Source: Eubacterium sp. (GTDB lineage: Bacteria > Bacillota > Clostridia > Lachnospirales > Lachnospiraceae). From it: a stretch of 54,597 nt of DNA. The notes under the pieces were generated by a model. The model made no database searches. It was not told where the DNA came from and saw nothing but the letters and a program-made list of their open reading frames with translations. Positions 17,182 through 42,664 of this stretch are shown here, piece by piece. The stretch spans positions 1-54,597 of the forward strand of contig JAGBNF010000021.1 of NCBI GenBank assembly GCA_017634555.1, written 5' to 3'. Each line of letters starts with the position of its first letter. Position 1 is the first letter of the stretch. The position numbers and the translations under genes are program-made.

Positions 17182-20100
17182 CTATTTCTTTTTCCGCTGC
17201 TTTCTTGTCACCGTGAGATATTGGAATTTAGCGGCAAGACGCGGATTTGAACGCGCCTTGGTCATTTCATATGATGAGGTGAGCAGCTGTGGATTTTCAC
17301 CCGCATAAATCTTGTTTATCATTCCCCTTGTTACAGGAGGTGCGAAAGGACGCTGCTTACCGTAAATGCCTATAGAATCTACCAGTGAGCCTATACACTC
17401 CGAAAGAAGAGGATCATCCTGATGTTCGCTGTAGTACTTAAGTACAAAGTCAAACAGCTCACGATCCAGTCTTTCCTGATCCAGGAACTCTATCCTGCAG
17501 TAATTGCGTGCAAATTCAGGAAGAAGCTCCCTCATTGCCATATAAAGTCCATTATCAAATGTGCGCTTCTGCTTTACAGGCTCTACCCTGCCGTCAACTC
17601 TCTTATATTCCACAACCGTGTTGTAAGGCATATTCGCAAAGATCGCCTCAACAAAGTGAAGTGATACCGTCTTTCCGGCAAAGTTATATCTGATGTCATG
17701 TCCGATAGAAGGATAGATGGAACGTGCATAGAAGAAAATGTCATCCATCTCACGATTTCCCGCCGCAAGACCGAGAAGTCTTGTGAAACAGGTCTGCGTA
17801 TAACCTCGTCCCCAATATTCAACAAAAGCAAACTTCTCCGAGAAATCTATCTCCTGCTTCAGATAATCCAATACTATAGGTCTTGTCTTCTCTGCCTTAT
17901 CCAGCAGGAACTTTCTGTAATCCGCATTTCCCTTTGCAGACTCGGTTATCTCATCCCTCTTCTTTGCAGGTATTATCGAAGCAGTTCTCAGACTTGCATA
18001 CTGAGGGAAGAAACCTGCGAATTCCTTATCCTTTAACTGCAGTGCATCAAGCAATGCATGATAAGTATTTACCTGAACGAAATTACCGACTGTGGAGAAG
18101 AACTCATCATCAACCCCGTCTATAAACGAAGGGATACGCCATGCGTTTCTCGAACCATAAATATACTTCGTCTTGATCGGCAGCTTCTTCTCTGAAATGA
18201 TAGTATCCGCTATCCTTTTCAGATGATATCCGTCTCTCGAAATGAAGTACAGGGTCTGCAGCCCCATTCTCATGGCACGATTTATAACCTGATTGATATA
18301 CGGAACAAAACAGAGTGATACGAAGGAGTATACAAATCTATCCTTCGGCTCTGTAAGTTTCGTTCCAAAGCGGCACAGCTCTGCTGCCATGAGGTAGCTG
18401 TCATAGCTGTTGACCGTACTTACCAGATTCTTCTCATAATCATTAAACTGTGGTATCTCATGGATCTTAGGTGTGATTCCAAGACTCTCCGCACATTTTC
18501 CGTCTGCGTTGGCATTGTCACCGTAATGGATCCATTTCTTATACTGATACGGCTTTTCCGAAAGATAGGCCTCAAGATAGAGTAAGCCCGTAGTCTTCTG
18601 AACACCGTAATCACTGGAAAGGAAAAGCGGCAACTCTGCCAGCTCAGGATCCGCCTTGGCAAGAAGCTTCCTGATAAACTCCTTATCCAGATACATATCG
18701 CTGAGAAGAAGCACACGGTCTCCCCTATGCTTTCTCTTCAGCAGTTCATCTATTTTCTCTCTGCATGGGATAACATTATCCAGCTCAGCCTCAAGCTCCC
18801 ACTTCTTCAGAAGCTCGCACTGCTCATCAGTGATCTCATAGAGATCCTGCATGCGGTTAAAGATCATATCATGTGTTATCTCTCGTCTGTTATCCTTTCG
18901 GAATTCAAGAGATTTACTGTAATACTCTCTCGCATTTGATTCACAGAATTCTCTTACAGCCGCATAATTTGCCGTAAGATATCCGGGGAACGGAATCTCC
19001 GAATTTCTCATTTTATAACGAACCTGGAAGAAGATTCCCTTCGGCTGAAGCACCTTTCTTGCGATAAGAGTATCGAAAATGTCATAGGAATAAAGTGTCG
19101 GAAGATCACTCTCCTTCTTAGGTATGAAGTTAAGTGCCGCCTCTACTATCTTCTCGAAGGAATCCGGCTCGGCATACTTCCAGAACAGGTCGTAAATCCT
19201 GTCGCCTTCCGCATCCTCTACGTCACCTATATGCTCCAATGAAGACAGCAGCTCGTCAAAGCTCTTGCACATAGTGCCGCTTGTCATTTCTTCAGGATCA
19301 TATACAAAATCTCTGAGGTTCTTATCCTTATCCTCATAATCAAAGAAATATCTGATAAAATGCTTTACTCCGCCGGCCAGCATATCGTAGTAGATCGATG
19401 AATAATCCACTATTCCAACATCGATCCTCGGGAAGATCTCATAGAAATCATTTGCATTATCCCAGAACATCAGATGCTTCTCCTGCTTATATTTCTGCTG
19501 GATATTTTTATATACAGGATTGTTTATCATCTGCGGATGAAGCTTCATTATCAGCAGTATATTTTCATTCTTTAATGTCTTGATCAGACTGTCGAAATCA
19601 GGGATTGCATTTCCCCAGAAATCAAATTCCGCATCATCCCTGTAGGTCGGAACATAAGCGGCGATCCTGGTATTTTCAGGCAGTCCTCTCTTCTTCAGGA
19701 TATCTCCGTCAAATGTGGATATCGGTTCATAGGTATTCTGATACATACATCTCGGATATCCGGCTCTGATCAGATTATCCTTACTGAGTCCCATCTGCTT
19801 TGCAAAATGCTCCTCCATCAGAGGTGAAGTTACAAGAAACAGCATATGGGTATAGTAAAAATCATTATATGTTATATATTTCTTGGCAATCCTTCTTGTA
19901 AGGAAACCGAAGTCTACGAATTTCTCTATGGTCTTGCAGCCGACACCGTGATAAAGGTTTAACAATATAACATCGTCCGGCATATTTGAAGGAATCTGCT
20001 CCTTAACCTGTTCAACGCAGAATACCCCCGTTCTCTGCTGAAGCTTTATTGCCGCATGTGACTTAAAGGTATATGCATTGTATCCAAGACTCTTAATCTG

Positions 20101-35473: not shown

Positions 35474-35857
35474 TTATGTAAAACCCATTATGTAATTAGC
35501 ATCGCGTCCAACTTTTTGGTCATCAAAAAACGAGAATGAAAGCTTCTGATAATGAGCGAAGATCTCGGCTCTCATATCATATTCCATCTTCGCGCCCATG
35601 ACGTGTCCGATGTTTGTTATAAAATAATTTGCTCCGAATTGGATTAGCACCAGAACAGCGAGTATTATGCATACGATAACGATCCGCCTGACTGCAGTCT
35701 CCATATCCATTTTCACTACATCGGTGGTTATATATCTTACAACCAGCGGGATTACGAGACTTATCAATGATGCAAGAAATGCAAAGAAAATATCCAGATA
35801 AAATGTACCCATGTATGGCTTGTAATAGCCAGCCATTTTTTTCAGATTATACTTCAT
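35474..35857 (-). pseudogene. 3'-truncated ABC exporter (membrane-domain remnant)
   Basis: 127 residues equal to the first membrane helices of an ABC_membrane half-exporter: MKYNLKKMAGYYKPY, three helices, then FSFFDDQKVG. The match stops just where the family continues, and a nonsense tail (RDANYIMGFT) leads to a stop. The remaining membrane helices and the whole ATPase domain are missing. GGGGAG lies before the ATG at 35857. The stop is fused to the ribosome binding site of the MutS-like gene. A deletion seems to have placed that gene behind the exporter's promoter and attenuator. Confidence 0.8.
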
Positions 35858-35910
35858 TTCACTCCCCTGACTATAAATACTAACTATAATTTTATCACTA
35901 AAATCAAATA

Positions 35911-35942
35911 AAAAAACCACTTATCCTCAAAAGATAAGTGGT
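35911..35942 (-). terminator. Attenuator terminator with alternative pairing partner
   Basis: On the minus strand ACCACTTATC and GATAAGTGGT form a perfect 10-bp stem with a 7-nt loop followed by at least six U. Upstream, AAAGATAAG (35991-35983) is exactly complementary to CTTATCTTT, which spans the 5' arm and loop (35938-35930). That 9-bp pairing would prevent the terminator. The upstream strand begins 9 nt after the stop of the 28-codon leader ORF, so ribosome position would decide which pairing forms. Confidence 0.75.
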
Positions 35943-37832: not shown

Positions 37833-38834
37833 ATGAAAAAAAGAATACTTAAGATACTGAGTATAGTACTTATAACCATTATAGCATTGGTCGCGGTACT
37901 TGCCGTGAGACACTACTTTATGTCCAAGTCAGACAGAGAGCTTTTTGCCGATGCTTACGGAGAGTACTACACCACTCCAGATGGCGAGCGCATCAACTAC
38001 ACCTTCTACGACAGCGAATCCGATAAGGTTGCGGTGCTTCTTCCGGGTTTCGGCTCTTCATCCGCACATTATGAATTCGATACTATCGCTAAAGGATTGA
38101 ATGATGCATATAAGATCATAATCGTAGATCCTCTCGGAGTCGGTCTCAGCGATGAAACAGACAGAGAACGTTCCGTTTCCAACTACTGCGAAGAGCTTCA
38201 CGGGCTTATGACTTATCTCGGCTACGACCACTATACTCTGATAGGACATTCGATAGCAGGCTTATATGCTCTTGATTATTCCAACAGATACCCTGAGGAA
38301 GTAGACGCATTTATCGGAATAGATGCATCAATACCTCACATGATCGAGATATGTCCGAAGGAAGCTCTCCCCGACAACATGTATAAATCCTATAAGTCCG
38401 CCAGACATATTCTGGTAGATACAGGTCTGTACCGTGTCTTAACCGAGCTTTCATACACAAAGACCGCCGAAATGATACCTACCCTTTCCGAGGATGATAA
38501 AAAAATCTACCTCGCCCTTAACTGTACCGATCAGCTGAACGATACTCAGTTAAGAGAGATAGGTAGACTTTCCGAAAATATCAAACTCTGTTATGACGAA
38601 AAATTTCCGGAATCGGTTCCGGTTCTTTATCTTCTTTCAAATGACAACAACAAGCTGATGCCGGGTTGGGATGAACTCCATAGAAAGCTTATCACAAATC
38701 CCTCCGGTCAGGTCATCGTACTTGAAGGCGGCCATTATCTTCACCTCGAAAACAGTGAAGGCATTATCAGTGAAATCCTGAAATGGACTAATTCACTGCA
38801 AACGAAAACCACCGCAAAAACTAGCGAGCCGTAA
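37833..38834 (+). CDS. Membrane-anchored alpha/beta hydrolase
   Basis: 333 residues. One N-terminal membrane helix (about 5-28) is followed by an alpha/beta-hydrolase domain. The oxyanion region is LLPGFGSSS, the nucleophile Ser is in IGHSIAGLYAL (about 150), and the Asp and His come from LSNDNNK and GGHYLHLE. It is likely an esterase-, lipase- or lactonase-like enzyme at the membrane. It follows the TetR gene in one operon, which suggests induction by its own substrate. The last 14 nt overlap the convergent nucleoside hydrolase gene. Confidence 0.9.
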   Translation: MKKRILKILSIVLITIIALVAVLAVRHYFMSKSDRELFADAYGEYYTTPDGERINYTFYDSESDKVAVLLPGFGSSSAHYEFDTIAKGLNDAYKIIIVDPLGVGLSDETDRERSVSNYCEELHGLMTYLGYDHYTLIGHSIAGLYALDYSNRYPEEVDAFIGIDASIPHMIEICPKEALPDNMYKSYKSARHILVDTGLYRVLTELSYTKTAEMIPTLSEDDKKIYLALNCTDQLNDTQLREIGRLSENIKLCYDEKFPESVPVLYLLSNDNNKLMPGWDELHRKLITNPSGQVIVLEGGHYLHLENSEGIISEILKWTNSLQTKTTAKTSEP

Positions 38835-39708
38835 ACAGCTCCAGCTTAGCGATAAAATCTTCAAGTATATATCTTGAATCCACATCCTTATATATCTTAA
38901 CGATAGGATTTATCGGGCACTCCGTTGAAGATGTATCTTCTTCGACGTGAGGTGCCGTGACATATTCATATCTTCCGCAATCCGGATTCATGGCAAGTGC
39001 CGGTGCAGGCGAGTCACCCAGTGACCAGCTCTCACCCTTAGTCCATCCGGCAAATTCCGAATGATTATAATCCATCAGATTTTTATAAAGATGTTCTCCT
39101 ATCTTTCCGCAGCCTGAAATGCGTCTCTTGATTTCAGCTATTCCAATATTCACTGTGATATAAACATACGACGGAACCAGCCAGAGATCTATACCGCTCT
39201 CCAGCACATAGTTTGCGGCCTCAATATCATTTCCTGCATTAAACTCTCTGAATGGAGCCTTATTCGGTGCAGTACCGTGAGTTCCTATCCAGATGACCGT
39301 CATCCGTTCCTTAATCTCAGGACACTCCCTGATGGCTGCGGCTACATTTGTTATAGCTCCCTGACACAGAACGAAGAGAGGCTTCTCATCCTCCTTCAAT
39401 GCTTCTTCGATGATGAACCTTACAGCCTCGGAAATCTCAGGATCAGCCGCAAGCGGACCCTTCTGACCCTTAAAGCATGGGACATCATCTATATCCATCG
39501 CTTCAAGTATCGTACGGATCTCTTCGTAGCTTCGTTCCATGGAACCCTCTTCCACAAAATGTTCTGCTACGATTCCCTTTACGATAAGCTTCGGACTGAG
39601 TATCGCATGCACTATGGCATAGGGATCATCCGCCTCACATGCCGCATCGGTGTCTACGATAACTCTTACCTTTTTGTAATCAGGTATGCTGAATAAATCT
39701 TCGATCAT
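38821..39708 (-). CDS. Nucleoside hydrolase (IUNH family)
   Basis: 295 residues of the inosine-uridine nucleoside hydrolase family. The N-terminal Ca2+-binding Asp cluster is VIVDTDAACEADDPYA, and LFVLCQGAITN and WIGTHG follow. It hydrolyses ribonucleosides, possibly nicotinamide riboside, to base and ribose. It starts 2 nt after the kptA stop and is the last gene of the methyltransferase-GNAT-GNAT-kptA operon. Relatives often use preQ0 or pyrimidine nucleosides; the substrate here is open. Confidence 0.88.
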   Translation of the reverse strand: MIEDLFSIPDYKKVRVIVDTDAACEADDPYAIVHAILSPKLIVKGIVAEHFVEEGSMERSYEEIRTILEAMDIDDVPCFKGQKGPLAADPEISEAVRFIIEEALKEDEKPLFVLCQGAITNVAAAIRECPEIKERMTVIWIGTHGTAPNKAPFREFNAGNDIEAANYVLESGIDLWLVPSYVYITVNIGIAEIKRRISGCGKIGEHLYKNLMDYNHSEFAGWTKGESWSLGDSPAPALAMNPDCGRYEYVTAPHVEEDTSSTECPINPIVKIYKDVDSRYILEDFIAKLELFTAR

Positions 39709-39710
39709 AA

Positions 39711-40256
39711 TTACTCCTTCTCCTCTTCTTTATTCAGGTATTTAGTCGGAACCTCCTTGGTCAGCCACACTCCGTTGACTGACTGATAGAAGGTATATCC
39801 GTCCTGCTGCATTTCCCCGCTTTTCACCTTATAGATTACCGGCTTTCCGTGACGGGCTCCGACTACCTTTGCAGTACCCGAATCCGCCGACAAATGTACA
39901 TACAGCCTCGACTTAGGTATAAGCCCTTCTCGGTCTATAGCCTCAACAAACTTCTCACCTGTACCGTGCCACAGAATTTCAGGTGGTTCCTTTGCCTCAA
40001 GCTCAACATCCACAGGAATTGAATGTCCCTGATTCGCACGGATCTTGGTCTTATCCTCGTTAAAGGAATACCTCTGTTTGTTATCGGTATTAACTATCTC
40101 CTCCAGCGTTTCCATATCGAGATGATGAGTTTTGCTGATGCCTTTTATCAATTCAGAAACATCAGCCCAGCCGTGTTCATCCAGAGTAATCCCGATGGTC
40201 TCAGGCTTATGTCTCAGTATCAGCGATATGTACTTACTGGTTTCATTATTTGACAT
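39711..40256 (-). CDS. kptA: RNA 2'-phosphotransferase, Tpt1/KptA family
   Basis: 181 residues with the full Tpt1/KptA motif set: SLILRHKPETIGI, RANQGHSIPVDV, LWHGTG and RLYVHLSAD. The enzyme transfers an internal 2'-phosphate from RNA to NAD+, giving ADP-ribose 1'',2''-cyclic phosphate and nicotinamide. In yeast it finishes tRNA splicing; its natural role in bacteria is unknown, and the fold is that of ADP-ribosyltransferases. Its ATG directly follows the GNAT stop and the nucleoside hydrolase follows after 2 nt. In this operon it might repair RNA or ADP-ribosylate a small molecule (inference). Confidence 0.95.
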   Translation of the reverse strand: MSNNETSKYISLILRHKPETIGITLDEHGWADVSELIKGISKTHHLDMETLEEIVNTDNKQRYSFNEDKTKIRANQGHSIPVDVELEAKEPPEILWHGTGEKFVEAIDREGLIPKSRLYVHLSADSGTAKVVGARHGKPVIYKVKSGEMQQDGYTFYQSVNGVWLTKEVPTKYLNKEEEKE

Positions 40257-41036
40257 TTAAATGTCACCCCTTCTTATAACTGTTTTTTCTCTTACTTTTA
40301 CAAATCCGATCTTTTCGGCTGTTTTTGCGGATGCTGTATTCATCGTAGAGCATGCCCATACAGGCTTCTTGCCGAGCGCGAGTACAGCCTCGCACATTTT
40401 AGCCGCAACTCCTGCTGCAAGGCCTCTGCCTCTGTAATCCGAATCAGTCTCGACACCGATATCAATCTCCGAAGAACTGACCGCACTCGAAAATGCAACA
40501 GCCACAACATGGTCTTTATCCATCGCTGCATAGCCCAGGCCTTTTTCCAGGAAGGCTTCATTACTGTCCCAGGAAAATGCAGGAATGATTCGTCCCTTTA
40601 TGCTGTTTATATTTTCCGCTGATACCGGCACTATGTCAATATTCGGATTTCTCTCCATCATACCATCCAGTGCACTCTTCGTCTTTTCTCGTCCGTATAC
40701 TTCATCATATTCAAACTCGAATCTCTTCTCAGTATGAACATCCGCTTTTACACTAAGCTTACCGATAACATTATCATCATCGGTAATGAGGATAAACCTT
40801 CTGTCGAGTTTCGGCTGTATAAAATCCTCATATACCTCTTCCAGGAATTCATCCGACAGTTCGCCGGCTGCGTAACCAAAACCGCAGTAATGCCAGAAGA
40901 GTGCCGCTTCGTTACCCACATATATATCGCCCTTCTGAATTCCTTCAAGGATTGAAAGAGGGTATGCCTTACTGTCAGCACATTTTATATCCGAATACTT
41001 ATCGAATTCTGTTTTTTCTATCTTTCTAAGCTTCAT
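40257..41036 (-). CDS. GNAT-like acetyltransferase (two-domain)
   Basis: 259 residues. The C-terminal half is a GNAT domain (EIDIGVETDSDYRGRGLAAGVA, then STMNTASAKTAEKIGFVKV). The N-terminal half is a related but degenerate domain, as in the GNAT_acetyltran (ZBM2-like) family. It overlaps the preceding GNAT gene by 11 nt and is followed directly by kptA, so it is a core member of the attenuated operon. The substrate is unknown. Confidence 0.87.
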   Translation of the reverse strand: MKLRKIEKTEFDKYSDIKCADSKAYPLSILEGIQKGDIYVGNEAALFWHYCGFGYAAGELSDEFLEEVYEDFIQPKLDRRFILITDDDNVIGKLSVKADVHTEKRFEFEYDEVYGREKTKSALDGMMERNPNIDIVPVSAENINSIKGRIIPAFSWDSNEAFLEKGLGYAAMDKDHVVAVAFSSAVSSSEIDIGVETDSDYRGRGLAAGVAAKMCEAVLALGKKPVWACSTMNTASAKTAEKIGFVKVREKTVIRRGDI

Positions 41037-41526
41037 CTATATCTGCCTCCATATATCCGCACGTGAACGGGAAGAAATCGTATTTCACCGAAGATACATG
41101 TTTAATCCCAAAGCTTTCATACCACTTGCGGAGTCTGACATTCTCATCAACGATTCCGAGCTTCAGCTTCTTCATACCCATAGCCTTTACTCTTTCCATG
41201 CAGTCCTCCAGAAGCTTCTGTCCGATACCTCTATGTCTCACTTCCGGAAGCACCGAAAGATTGTTCAGTTCTACTTCGTCATTCTCCAAGAGAGCCAGTG
41301 AATAATATCCAACAACTTTGCCGTTCAGAATATACACATACATCGGTTTATGTTCTTCCGCAAACTGATATTTGAGCCTGTCATCACACATTGCGTAAGC
41401 CGTAAATCTCGGTGCGTTTTCCTCAGTAAATCCAAACTCATCTGCAACGGTTTTGAAGGCTGCTCTTATCACCTTAACGCATTCCGGAATTTCCTCAAAT
41501 GATAATTCTCTGATCATACCATCCAT
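41026..41526 (-). CDS. GNAT family N-acetyltransferase
   Basis: 166 residues with a canonical GNAT core: NLSVLPEVRHRGIGQKLLED for acetyl-CoA binding and LRKWYESFGIKHV. It follows the methyltransferase by 13 nt and overlaps the next gene by 11 nt. Small-molecule acetylation is likely; the target cannot be told. Confidence 0.88.
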   Translation of the reverse strand: MDGMIRELSFEEIPECVKVIRAAFKTVADEFGFTEENAPRFTAYAMCDDRLKYQFAEEHKPMYVYILNGKVVGYYSLALLENDEVELNNLSVLPEVRHRGIGQKLLEDCMERVKAMGMKKLKLGIVDENVRLRKWYESFGIKHVSSVKYDFFPFTCGYMEADIDEA

Positions 41527-41539
41527 ATATTTGCCCTCC

Positions 41540-42367
41540 TCAGTCTTTCTTTTTAAGTATCCATATCAGATTGCTCTTATACTTCGCTGCCGAATTCGGA
41601 TCACTCAGATCTTCCTTATCACCGTTATATCCACGGTAAATATCAAGGACCTCGAAGCCGCAGAGCTCGGCAAGAAGGAATATTTCGGAACGATATGTCT
41701 CTCTCATAAGAAGCGGTCTTATACGCTCATCGATCACATTTCCTTCTGCATCATATGTCTCAAACTTCCAGTTTCCGAAAAGCTGCTGTGTATATGGATT
41801 ATAGGAAATTGCATTATATATCTTCTCTCTGTTTCCTTCGCTGTTTACATACTCCAGTCTGAAGGAATAATCATCAGGCCCTGTCGCCATCTGCTCCGCC
41901 TGCATAACCGGCCATGGATCAAATGTATTAAATGTGAGGATGCCGCCCGGAAGAAGCTGCTCTCTGATATTCTTCAGCGCTTCTATCTGAAGCTTCTGAT
42001 CCGGAAGATGCATGAAGCCGCTTCTTGCGATAATGGCAAGAGAGTAACGTCTGCCCGAACTGAATGTTGTCATATTTGCAGGAAAAATGTTCAGCTTAAG
42101 ATTCATCTTCTCAGCCTTAGCTGCCGATACCCTGCACATTTCCTCTGAGAGATCTGTTCCGTCAACATCTATTCCTCTCTCAGCCAGATATAGAAGCACT
42201 GCTCCTGTTCCACAGGCTATATCAACTACTCCGTCCTGACCATACTTCTCTGCCAGCTTCAGATAAAACTCCTGAAAATTCTCATGATTATCCTGATCAC
42301 CGGCATACATTACTTCCAGGTATCTGTCATAATTTTCCGCAACATCTTTAAAATCGTGTAAATCCAT
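41540..42367 (-). CDS. Class I SAM-dependent methyltransferase
   Basis: 275 residues. The SAM-binding motif I is VDIACGTGAVLLYLA (about 58) with an acidic VDGTDLSEEM strand after it, then LLPGGILTFNTFD. The ATG at 42367 is preferred because GGAGG lies 8 nt upstream; the frame is open 7 codons further. It is the first gene after the leader/terminator region at 42416-42664 and heads the operon with two GNATs, kptA and nucleoside hydrolase. Its target (RNA, antibiotic or metabolite) is unknown. Confidence 0.9.
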   Translation of the reverse strand: MDLHDFKDVAENYDRYLEVMYAGDQDNHENFQEFYLKLAEKYGQDGVVDIACGTGAVLLYLAERGIDVDGTDLSEEMCRVSAAKAEKMNLKLNIFPANMTTFSSGRRYSLAIIARSGFMHLPDQKLQIEALKNIREQLLPGGILTFNTFDPWPVMQAEQMATGPDDYSFRLEYVNSEGNREKIYNAISYNPYTQQLFGNWKFETYDAEGNVIDERIRPLLMRETYRSEIFLLAELCGFEVLDIYRGYNGDKEDLSDPNSAAKYKSNLIWILKKKD

Positions 42368-42415
42368 ATTATAGTCCTCCATTAACATTATACATTTATC
42401 CTGGCCAGGGATAAT

Positions 42416-42454
42416 AAAATAAAAAGACCACTTATCCGGGTTGGATAAGCGGTC
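42416..42454 (-). terminator. Attenuator terminator before the methyltransferase operon
   Basis: GACCGCTTATCC and GGATAAGTGGTC form a 12-bp stem (one G-U) with a 5-nt loop followed by TTTTTATTTTATT on the minus strand. It stands between the leader ORF and the methyltransferase. Upstream, CTGATTA/TAATCAG (42463-42481) is a first hairpin. GGTTAAT (42472-42466) can instead pair with ATTGACC (42457-42451), breaking both that hairpin and the base of the terminator. This gives a 1:2, 2:3, 3:4 set as in classical attenuators. Confidence 0.75.
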
Positions 42455-42486
42455 AATAAAAACTGATTAACCTATAATCAGACGCT

Positions 42487-42597
42487 CTAATCTTCTCTCA
42501 TTCCCGAATAATTACATACAAAATGAAAACCATTCCCGGTAGTCCCGTGGCTGGTCTTAGTTGTTGTGTATGTAGTTTCGGAAACGAATCTACGCAT
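42487..42597 (-). CDS. 36-residue leader peptide
   Basis: ATG at 42597 with AGAGGGG upstream opens a 36-codon ORF ending in TAG at 42487. It begins MRRFVSETTYTT and is rich in Thr, Gly and aromatic residues. The stop lies 6 nt before the first strand of the attenuator set. It starts about 32 nt after the predicted transcription start. Aligned from the Met with the leader at 36000-36086, both have Thr or Ser at 6, Thr-Thr at 8-9 and Thr at 11. It is probably a regulatory peptide whose translation is sensed. A genuine small protein is the alternative. Confidence 0.65.
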   Translation of the reverse strand: MRRFVSETTYTTTKTSHGTTGNGFHFVCNYSGMRED

Positions 42598-42635
42598 GAA
42601 AAGTATCCCCTCTGAATAATAAAAATATTGAGCTT

Positions 42636-42664
42636 AGACTACTACGATTCAAAACGTATGTCAA
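42636..42664 (-). promoter_or_regulatory. Promoter of the leader/methyltransferase/kptA operon
   Basis: TTGACA (42664-42659), 17-nt spacer, TAGTCT (42641-42636) on the minus strand. Transcription would start near 42629. The remaining stretch to the response-regulator stop at 42749 holds no other gene that I can see. Confidence 0.7.

Follow-up and report, generated by a model that had tools for sequence, protein, structure and literature searches.

In the trp, thr and his attenuators of enterobacteria, the antiterminator strand is preceded by a hairpin and becomes masked once a ribosome sits at the leader stop. The macrolide arrest leaders of the erm type exert mostly translational control. 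The bmrB leader of Bacillus subtilis bmrBCD is described in PMC4191407 as a translated leader with an intrinsic terminator and an antiterminator, in which slowed ribosomes bring about read-through and the antiterminator is less favourable than the terminator. For uORFC-6-1, located before hflX mainly in Bacillales, PMC8632094 suggests that ribosomes stalled at a leader ORF affect the transcription of a stress gene. The leader described in this paper, very probably a transcription attenuator controlled by ribosome position through the antiterminator set out below, is a new family of this known mechanistic kind (trp/bmrB). A literature search that covered subscription journals little returned known attenuators and uORF motifs, none of them in Lachnospiraceae with these genes.

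The DNA analysed (the window) is a stretch of 54,597 nt from a Eubacterium sp. assembly (2.33 Mb, 47 contigs, 71.85% complete). As seen in Table 1, a short ORF with a ribosome binding site stands upstream of an operon, and an intrinsic terminator lies between this leader and the first gene. The promoter-like pair, the AGAGGGG sequence, the 36-codon ORF, the spacer complementarities and the 12-bp terminator with U-tract listed by the first-pass annotation are all present on the minus strand. Its placing of the first spacer strand, CTGATTA, 6 nt past the leader stop is confirmed, as is, by Pfam, its gene order of methyltransferase, GNAT, GNAT, kptA and nucleoside hydrolase.

Table 1. Features of the leader, the operon behind it and the second leader in the window
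Feature	Position	Strand	Basis or remark
-35-like TTGACA	42664-42659	(-)	Promoter-like pair with TAGTCT
-10-like TAGTCT	42641-42636	(-)	17 nt from -35
Shine-Dalgarno AGAGGGG	42613-42607	(-)	9 nt 5' of ATG
Leader ORF	42597-42487	(-)	36 codons and stop; MRRFVSETTYTTTKTSHGTTGNGFHFVCNYSGMRED
Motif G[LF]xx[VI]C in leader ORF	codons 23-28	(-)	GFHFVC in window
In-ORF hairpin strand 1, AAGACCA	42558-42552	(-)	Window folds and r1:r2 covariation
In-ORF hairpin strand 2, TGGTTTT	42532-42526	(-)	Window folds and r1:r2 covariation
Predicted antiterminator 5' strand, TTCGGGAATGAG	42508-42497	(-)	Within codons 30-34
Spacer strands CTGATTA / TAATCAG	42481-42475 / 42469-42463	(-)	Complementary
Spacer helix GGTTAAT / ATTGACC	42472-42466 / 42457-42451	(-)	In predicted folds; window-specific
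Intrinsic terminator hairpin, 12 bp	42454-42426	(-)	32 nt 3' of leader stop; then TTTTTATTTT
Predicted antiterminator 3' strand, CTTATCCAACCCGGA	42449-42435	(-)	Terminator 5' arm, loop, first 3'-arm bases
U-rich tract of terminator	42425-42416	(-)	
Class I SAM methyltransferase	41540-42367	(-)	Pfam; listed ORF from 42388
GNAT acetyltransferase	41026-41526	(-)	Pfam
GNAT acetyltransferase, PF12746	40257-41036	(-)	Pfam
kptA, RNA 2'-phosphotransferase	39711-40256	(-)	PF01885; NF002014, 255.5 bits, cut-off 239
Nucleoside hydrolase	38821-39708	(-)	PF01156
Second leader-family member	36086-35916	(-)	Before shortened ABC-exporter-like ORF 35474-35920

A scan of both strands of the window for the combination of ATG, Shine-Dalgarno sequence, promoter-like -35 and terminator returned 2 leaders only (42597 and 36086). 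The second is matched by the RNA model R1 described below (E 4.7e-5), though it is absent from the rows of that model. Its ORF of 28 codons ends earlier than those of the 36-codon relatives, and the ABC-exporter ORF behind it is listed with 148 aa, compared to 574-582 aa in relatives with complete ORFs. Since both are shorter than in relatives, this leader and its gene look degraded together. At gathering thresholds, Rfam gave 0 matches in the window to a riboswitch, T-box or known leader, and NCBIfam gave no match to the window leader peptide at E <= 1. Across nine leader-bearing loci, Rfam at E <= 5 gave 6 matches, only one of them above gathering, a cobalamin riboswitch near the G194 leader locus (RF00174, L146:2507-2696, 39.1 bits, gathering 31.5). 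Of 26 genus leaders, 25 have TTGACA at most 110 nt 5' of the start of the leader (the exception is G072), and the columns AGTA..CTAA are invariant in 9 aligned leaders, the alignment rows being cut at TTGACA.

Altogether, 61 leaders were tabulated in Lachnospiraceae, besides two divergent ones before methyltransferase homologues whose discovery did not depend on the leader. Of 61 relatives' genomes searched at the DNA level, 8 gave a match, with five extra matches before other genes; the match in G042 was rejected as chance, as it sits in a longer open frame (L009) without leader anatomy. When a nine-row peptide alignment was searched against 61 genus genomes, 18 of them contained a total of 26 matches at E <= 4.5e-11, of which 9 were rows of the alignment itself, and peptide relatives outside the query alignment matched with E down to 1.7e-19; the leader in G028 contig C26 was placed by this search at 17247. 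With a 16-row alignment, 348 family genomes yielded the own leader, G102 and, weakly, G296, and 392 order genomes the own leader, G102 and, weakly, G724. A wider alignment matched 129 of 397 family genomes at E <= 0.5, mostly weakly. Nine of its weak loci were inspected, and the full leader anatomy was present in four (L113, L114, L115, L122) and absent in L117, L129 and L130, L120 and L137 being left unparsed by the script; many of the remaining weak matches are probably chance. The covariance model R1 was built on the second half of the module and spans about the last 20 ORF codons. At E <= 0.1 it had matches in 33 of 397 genomes from the family and in 29 of 61 from the genus, weak ones included. 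Because the genome draws overlap, counts from different draws are not additive. From the R1 matches 40 loci were parsed, and 28 of these entered the set of 61; G000c, G750, G427, G391b, G000d, G033b, G073b, G012, G027, G067b, G066b and G004c were dropped for want of a convincing leader ORF. G015a was excluded from the duplex and folding sets, its stem having been missed by the strict terminator finder. Eubacterium ruminantium ATCC 17233 (L107), of the same genus as the window genome, also carries the leader.

Several loci depart from this anatomy. Seven genus loci (G033b, G073b, G012, G027, G067b, G066b, G004c) match the terminator part alone, with no leader ORF by the criteria of the script. 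Partial matches at L221, L222, L224 (near a contig end), L225, L226, L234 and L238 show this terminator sequence in front of GNAT, methyltransferase-like and other genes, with no leader ORF by the criteria used. Terminator-only loci are either decayed leaders or cases of the terminator spreading alone. At L079 (G079:C49, about 320-565) the spacer end and terminator are tandemly duplicated, giving two terminators behind one leader. TTTCAG occurs just past the leader stop in five other-genus loci (L113, L114, L115, L122, L109), and no role for it was found. Additionally, four weak R1 matches (E 0.006-0.017; L211 in G238, L212 in G427, L217 in G142, L218 in G184) lie before genes that we take to be RtcB-like, with ACCGCTTA-type terminators and no clear leader ORF match. 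Three rows of the 61 are linked to genes presumed to be of the same RtcB-like kind, and in these the ORF is doubtful and the pairing, reckoned from the stop assigned, is weak. The four weak matches are possibly a distant sister attenuator.

The ORF was examined in 19 full-length R1 matches (E <= 5e-4) outside both the R1 rows and the 26 peptide matches. R1 lacks the first half of the ORF, and the last 20 codons are partly selected by it while the start half is not. An ORF of at least 27 codons with ATG and Shine-Dalgarno sequence, ending in the allowed stretch before the terminator, was found in 18 of the 19 loci, compared to 0.50 expected from dinucleotide shuffles under the same search; G032b is the one full-length match without a long ORF. 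Substitutions in 13 pairs gave pN/pS 0.69, with 80, 72 and 89 differences at the three codon positions, suggesting weak purifying selection on the leader ORF. This ratio gives weaker support to the ORF, as is expected if RNA pairing restrains silent sites too.

Loci that had kept the operon and lost the ORF and pairings were named in advance as evidence against a leader switch. A search for the methyltransferase without use of the leader (180 family genomes, E <= 1e-20) returned four carriers, the own genome, G227 (81%), G254 (65%) and G102 (64%). The G227 locus holds just a few bases 5' of the methyltransferase start codon and does not contain the leader region. G254 and G102 have leaders of 37 and 36 codons with GF[IV]SVCKIRS near the end, a terminator that begins AGACCTTATC and a 9-bp antiterminator, GATAAGGTC/GACCTTATC. 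Since leader and terminator are divergent in both genomes and the pairing logic is the same, ORF and switch appear to have been kept while the sequence diverged. Three close methyltransferase orthologues in the genus, found by protein search (G068, G006, G026), also have the leader. The judged carriers thus keep the ORF.

As read from the sequences, the conserved antiterminator is a predicted pairing of the last leader codons, often with the stop, to the 5' arm and loop of the terminator. The strength of native pairings was compared to that of segments re-paired among different leaders. For 33 leaders, pairing of the last eight codons and stop with the 5' arm and loop of the terminator came to -10.92 kcal/mol natively and -8.93 kcal/mol when re-paired (0/20,000 permutations). 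The in-ORF hairpin was not outstanding in this unclustered set (5,824/20,000) because it is shared by most rows. When 58 leaders, the three doubtful RtcB-type rows omitted, were clustered at 75% identity into 31 clusters, the antiterminator gave -10.96 natively versus -8.80 kcal/mol (sd 0.34) re-paired (0/50000), and the native terminator beat the median foreign one in 26/31 clusters. The in-ORF hairpin (r1:r2) in the same clusters gave -13.16 versus -10.02 (sd 0.56), also 0/50000, with the native pairing better in 25/31. The control pairings r2:T5, r1:T5, spacer:T5 and r2:C were null or weak, with z of -0.4, 0.0, -2.0 and -2.0. The first of these, r2:T5, corresponds to the 2:3 pairing of trp and was rejected as a conserved switch. 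Because the leaders are related, these re-pairing counts are not independent events, the clustering notwithstanding. Examples of the pairing are AAAGATAAG with CTTATCTTT in the ABC-exporter leaders, GGATCAGGATAAG with CTTATCGATCC in G102b and TGCGAAGAAGAG with CTTATCTTTGCA in G105; it is weak in G385 and G194 (-7.7). The terminator stem is paired in 99.2% of 242 cells over 22 aligned leaders, with two-sided changes in 6 of 11 pairs (0/500 shuffles). By sequence and covariation, antiterminator and terminator are mutually exclusive.

A reading without a switch, in which the ORF would code for a small protein with a function of its own and the terminator would be an ordinary one, draws on the peptide similarity that is recognisable across genera. 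It is very improbable given that the terminator and the ORF 3' end covary and that the leader module recurs before several gene families. Moreover, in four leaders whose ORFs stop early (window 36086, G187, G072b, G068d), the pairing strand is kept about 6-16 nt past the stop. Leader-peptide transcription attenuation, the reading proposed at the outset, is supported in that ORF, terminator and exclusive antiterminator are conserved and covary.

The pairings assigned to that switch fared differently, for of the three originally proposed it is the terminator that covaries. The spacer would act in the classical manner if CTGATTA/TAATCAG and GGTTAAT/ATTGACC were the alternating helices, with strand 1 past the leader stop. 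All of these strands are present in the window, CTGATTA/TAATCAG appears in folds with the complete terminator, and GGTTAAT/ATTGACC, which holds the base of the terminator, appears in the pre-terminator fold whether the ribosome is absent or placed at codon 23. However, the spacers of six methyltransferase-type relatives (G026, G006a, G068a, G385, G286, G296) contain no exact copy of any of the four heptamers, and over the 31 clusters spacer and terminator pair only weakly better than when re-paired (z -2.0, 1337/50000). Both complementarities are real here, and that they are the alternating helices of the switch is improbable; in this single genome, GGTTAAT/ATTGACC may add to the antiterminator.

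The effect of the ribosome was modelled by folding the span from its leading edge (P-site +15) to the stage at which the terminator loop has emerged and the 3' arm has not. With the P-site at codons -18 to -10 before the stop, 54-56 of 61 leaders formed at least 5 antiterminator pairs; 2/61 did so at codon -4 and 0/61 from -3 to the stop. Leading edges of +12 and +18 gave 50-56/61 at sampled codons from -18 to -10 and 0/61 at -1. According to this model, ribosome position would decide between antiterminator and terminator. With no ribosome, at least 5 pairs still formed in 22/61 leaders, and the untranslated state is therefore not uniformly off. In the window leader, a ribosome at codons 8-9 gave 11.3-11.4 antiterminator pairs, at codons 11-16 merely 1.0-2.1, at codons 17-19 7.1-9.8, and at codons 20-25 11.7; the value fell to 8.6 at V27 and 4.2 at C28, and was 0.0 from codon 35 on and also without a ribosome. 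With a ribosome at codon 23, too, the complete terminator remains the fold of lowest energy, and for this reason the antiterminator has to prevail by kinetics.

The window leader has Thr at codons 8-9, 11-13, 15 and 19-20, and its three closest methyltransferase-type leaders are Thr-rich as well. These codons raise the reading of a threonine attenuator, with the ribosome stalling along the Thr-rich stretch when charged tRNA-Thr is scarce. Antiterminator pairs indeed number 9.8-11.7 with a ribosome at Thr 8, 9, 19 or 20, but only 1.0-2.1 with one at Thr 11, 12, 13 or 15. Many other family members are not Thr-rich, no single amino acid's codons are common to the family, and none of the classified downstream genes, not all of them Pfam-tested as first genes, is for Thr biosynthesis or for charging tRNA with Thr. 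Leader peptides and ribosome-position pairs together led to the rejection of threonine attenuation as the function of the family, and we regard it as hardly credible.

The leader ORF, the terminator, the in-ORF hairpin and the antiterminator are conserved, and their geometry fits control by the ribosome; we infer termination and read-through in cells, the ribosome as the switch, and what might hold it. RNA polymerase would transcribe the 36-codon leader ORF with a ribosome following. A ribosome finishing the leader would cover the last codons and the stop and prevent their pairing with the terminator 5' arm and loop; with the last codons masked, the terminator would form and the operon would be off. 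A ribosome held about 10-18 codons before the stop, near G[LF]xx[VI]C, would leave the last codons free. These could then form the antiterminator with the 5' arm and loop just transcribed, and polymerase would read into the operon. Slowed ribosomes thus probably switch the operon on. The in-ORF hairpin probably serves timing, or shields the antiterminator strand when the ribosome is absent.

Ribosome-position control could be refined by making the peptide a drug-specific arrest peptide, with G[LF]xx[VI]C stalling the ribosome solely when a particular compound is bound, in the manner of erm leaders. The candidate motif is present in 50/61 leaders, 22-41 nt lying between its first codon and the antiterminator strand (the script chose an earlier residue in G028a, G079a, G015b and G074a), and by this geometry a ribosome with the first codon of the motif in its P-site leaves the strand uncovered. 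The motif thus sits where a held ribosome would free the strand. In the 26 of 31 clusters that could be aligned, by a rule favouring hydrophobic residues at +4, G is found at position 0 in 23/26 and V at +4 in 17/26, and the divergent methyltransferase leaders keep GF[IV]SVC. On the other side, the motif varies (GPIFAF, RPFFDV), and because the position-0 codon is GGT in 21/26 clusters, RNA pairing can explain part of the conservation. Arrest by a specific compound is possible and, on balance, doubtful.

The first genes behind the 61 leaders were classed by sequence motif, and fifteen representatives were tested with Pfam. There are 11 ABC exporters, 14 GNAT proteins in three groups, 6 DLHD-type methyltransferases, 6 phosphorylases, 4 proteins with a GNAT domain and what we take to be a P-loop motif, 3 of the MKYYRVH type, 3 RtcB-like genes (the weak rows), 2 IDNGK-type methyltransferases and seven others occurring once each; 5/61 leaders have no ORF in reach. 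Pfam gave no match for the MKYYRVH type or for the P-loop part. First genes belong to at least 7 Pfam kinds: ABC exporter, GNAT, methyltransferase, phosphorylase, transglutaminase-like, phosphodiesterase-like and P5C-reductase-like.

Compared to the trp, thr and his attenuators, the proposed switch is alike in that a ribosome at the leader stop would mask the antiterminator strand and in its preceding hairpin. It differs in that no run of codons for a single amino acid is common to the family and that the downstream genes are not for amino-acid biosynthesis, except the P5C-reductase-like gene after G102b. The hydrophobic conserved segment at the proposed stall site recalls the erm leaders, whose control is mostly translational, whereas a transcriptional switch is proposed here. 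As in bmrB as described, the finished terminator is energetically preferred over the antiterminator; bmrB controls ABC transporter genes, and 11/61 leaders here, by motif and with one Pfam-tested, precede ABC-exporter-like genes. By comparison of descriptions, the bmrB terminator lies inside the coding region, whereas here it lies 26-69 nt past the leader stop, and unlike in bmrB the predicted antiterminator strand is supplied by the last part of the leader ORF. Like uORFC-6-1, the family has a leader ORF at which stalled ribosomes may influence transcription; taxon and downstream gene, compared by description, are different.

The genes of the window operon are spaced by -11 to 13 nt. The methyltransferase probably starts at 42367 (275 aa, Shine-Dalgarno GGAGG at 42380-42376) rather than at 42388, where the listed ORF has its first ATG. 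Its match to PADLOC mad2 is partial (160/492 profile positions, E 2.7e-18), and an anti-phage role was rejected, the match probably reflecting the shared methyltransferase domain alone. The literature was searched for a connection between microcin C-like compounds and nucleoside hydrolases and GNATs, and none was found. In G006 and G026, two genus relatives with sequence past the methyltransferase, that gene is followed by two ORFs judged GNAT-like by resemblance, and kptA was not found in the 8-9 kb around the leader. Accordingly, kptA is not constant in the regulated set, and it and the nucleoside hydrolase seem to have been added locally. Tpt1 is described as inessential in exemplary bacterial systems (PMC6333775), and PMC11833690 calls the relevance of RNA phosphate ADP-ribosylation, an activity of Tpt1/KptA among others, unclear.

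The downstream genes resemble detoxification enzymes and exporters, that is, small-molecule modification and export, and a translation inhibitor or slowing is therefore favoured as the signal. The leading guess is a ribosome-targeting compound or a general slowing of translation; that ribosome-targeting compounds are the natural signal is plausible without being probable. Speculatively, the leader family may be a portable sensor of such compounds across Lachnospiraceae, joining unrelated detoxification enzymes and exporters into one translation-stress regulon by which kptA was captured here, although we consider this extension unlikely. The leader family offers a sequence-based route to genes possibly induced by disturbed translation. 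For kptA, the leader gives a concrete inducing condition to try.
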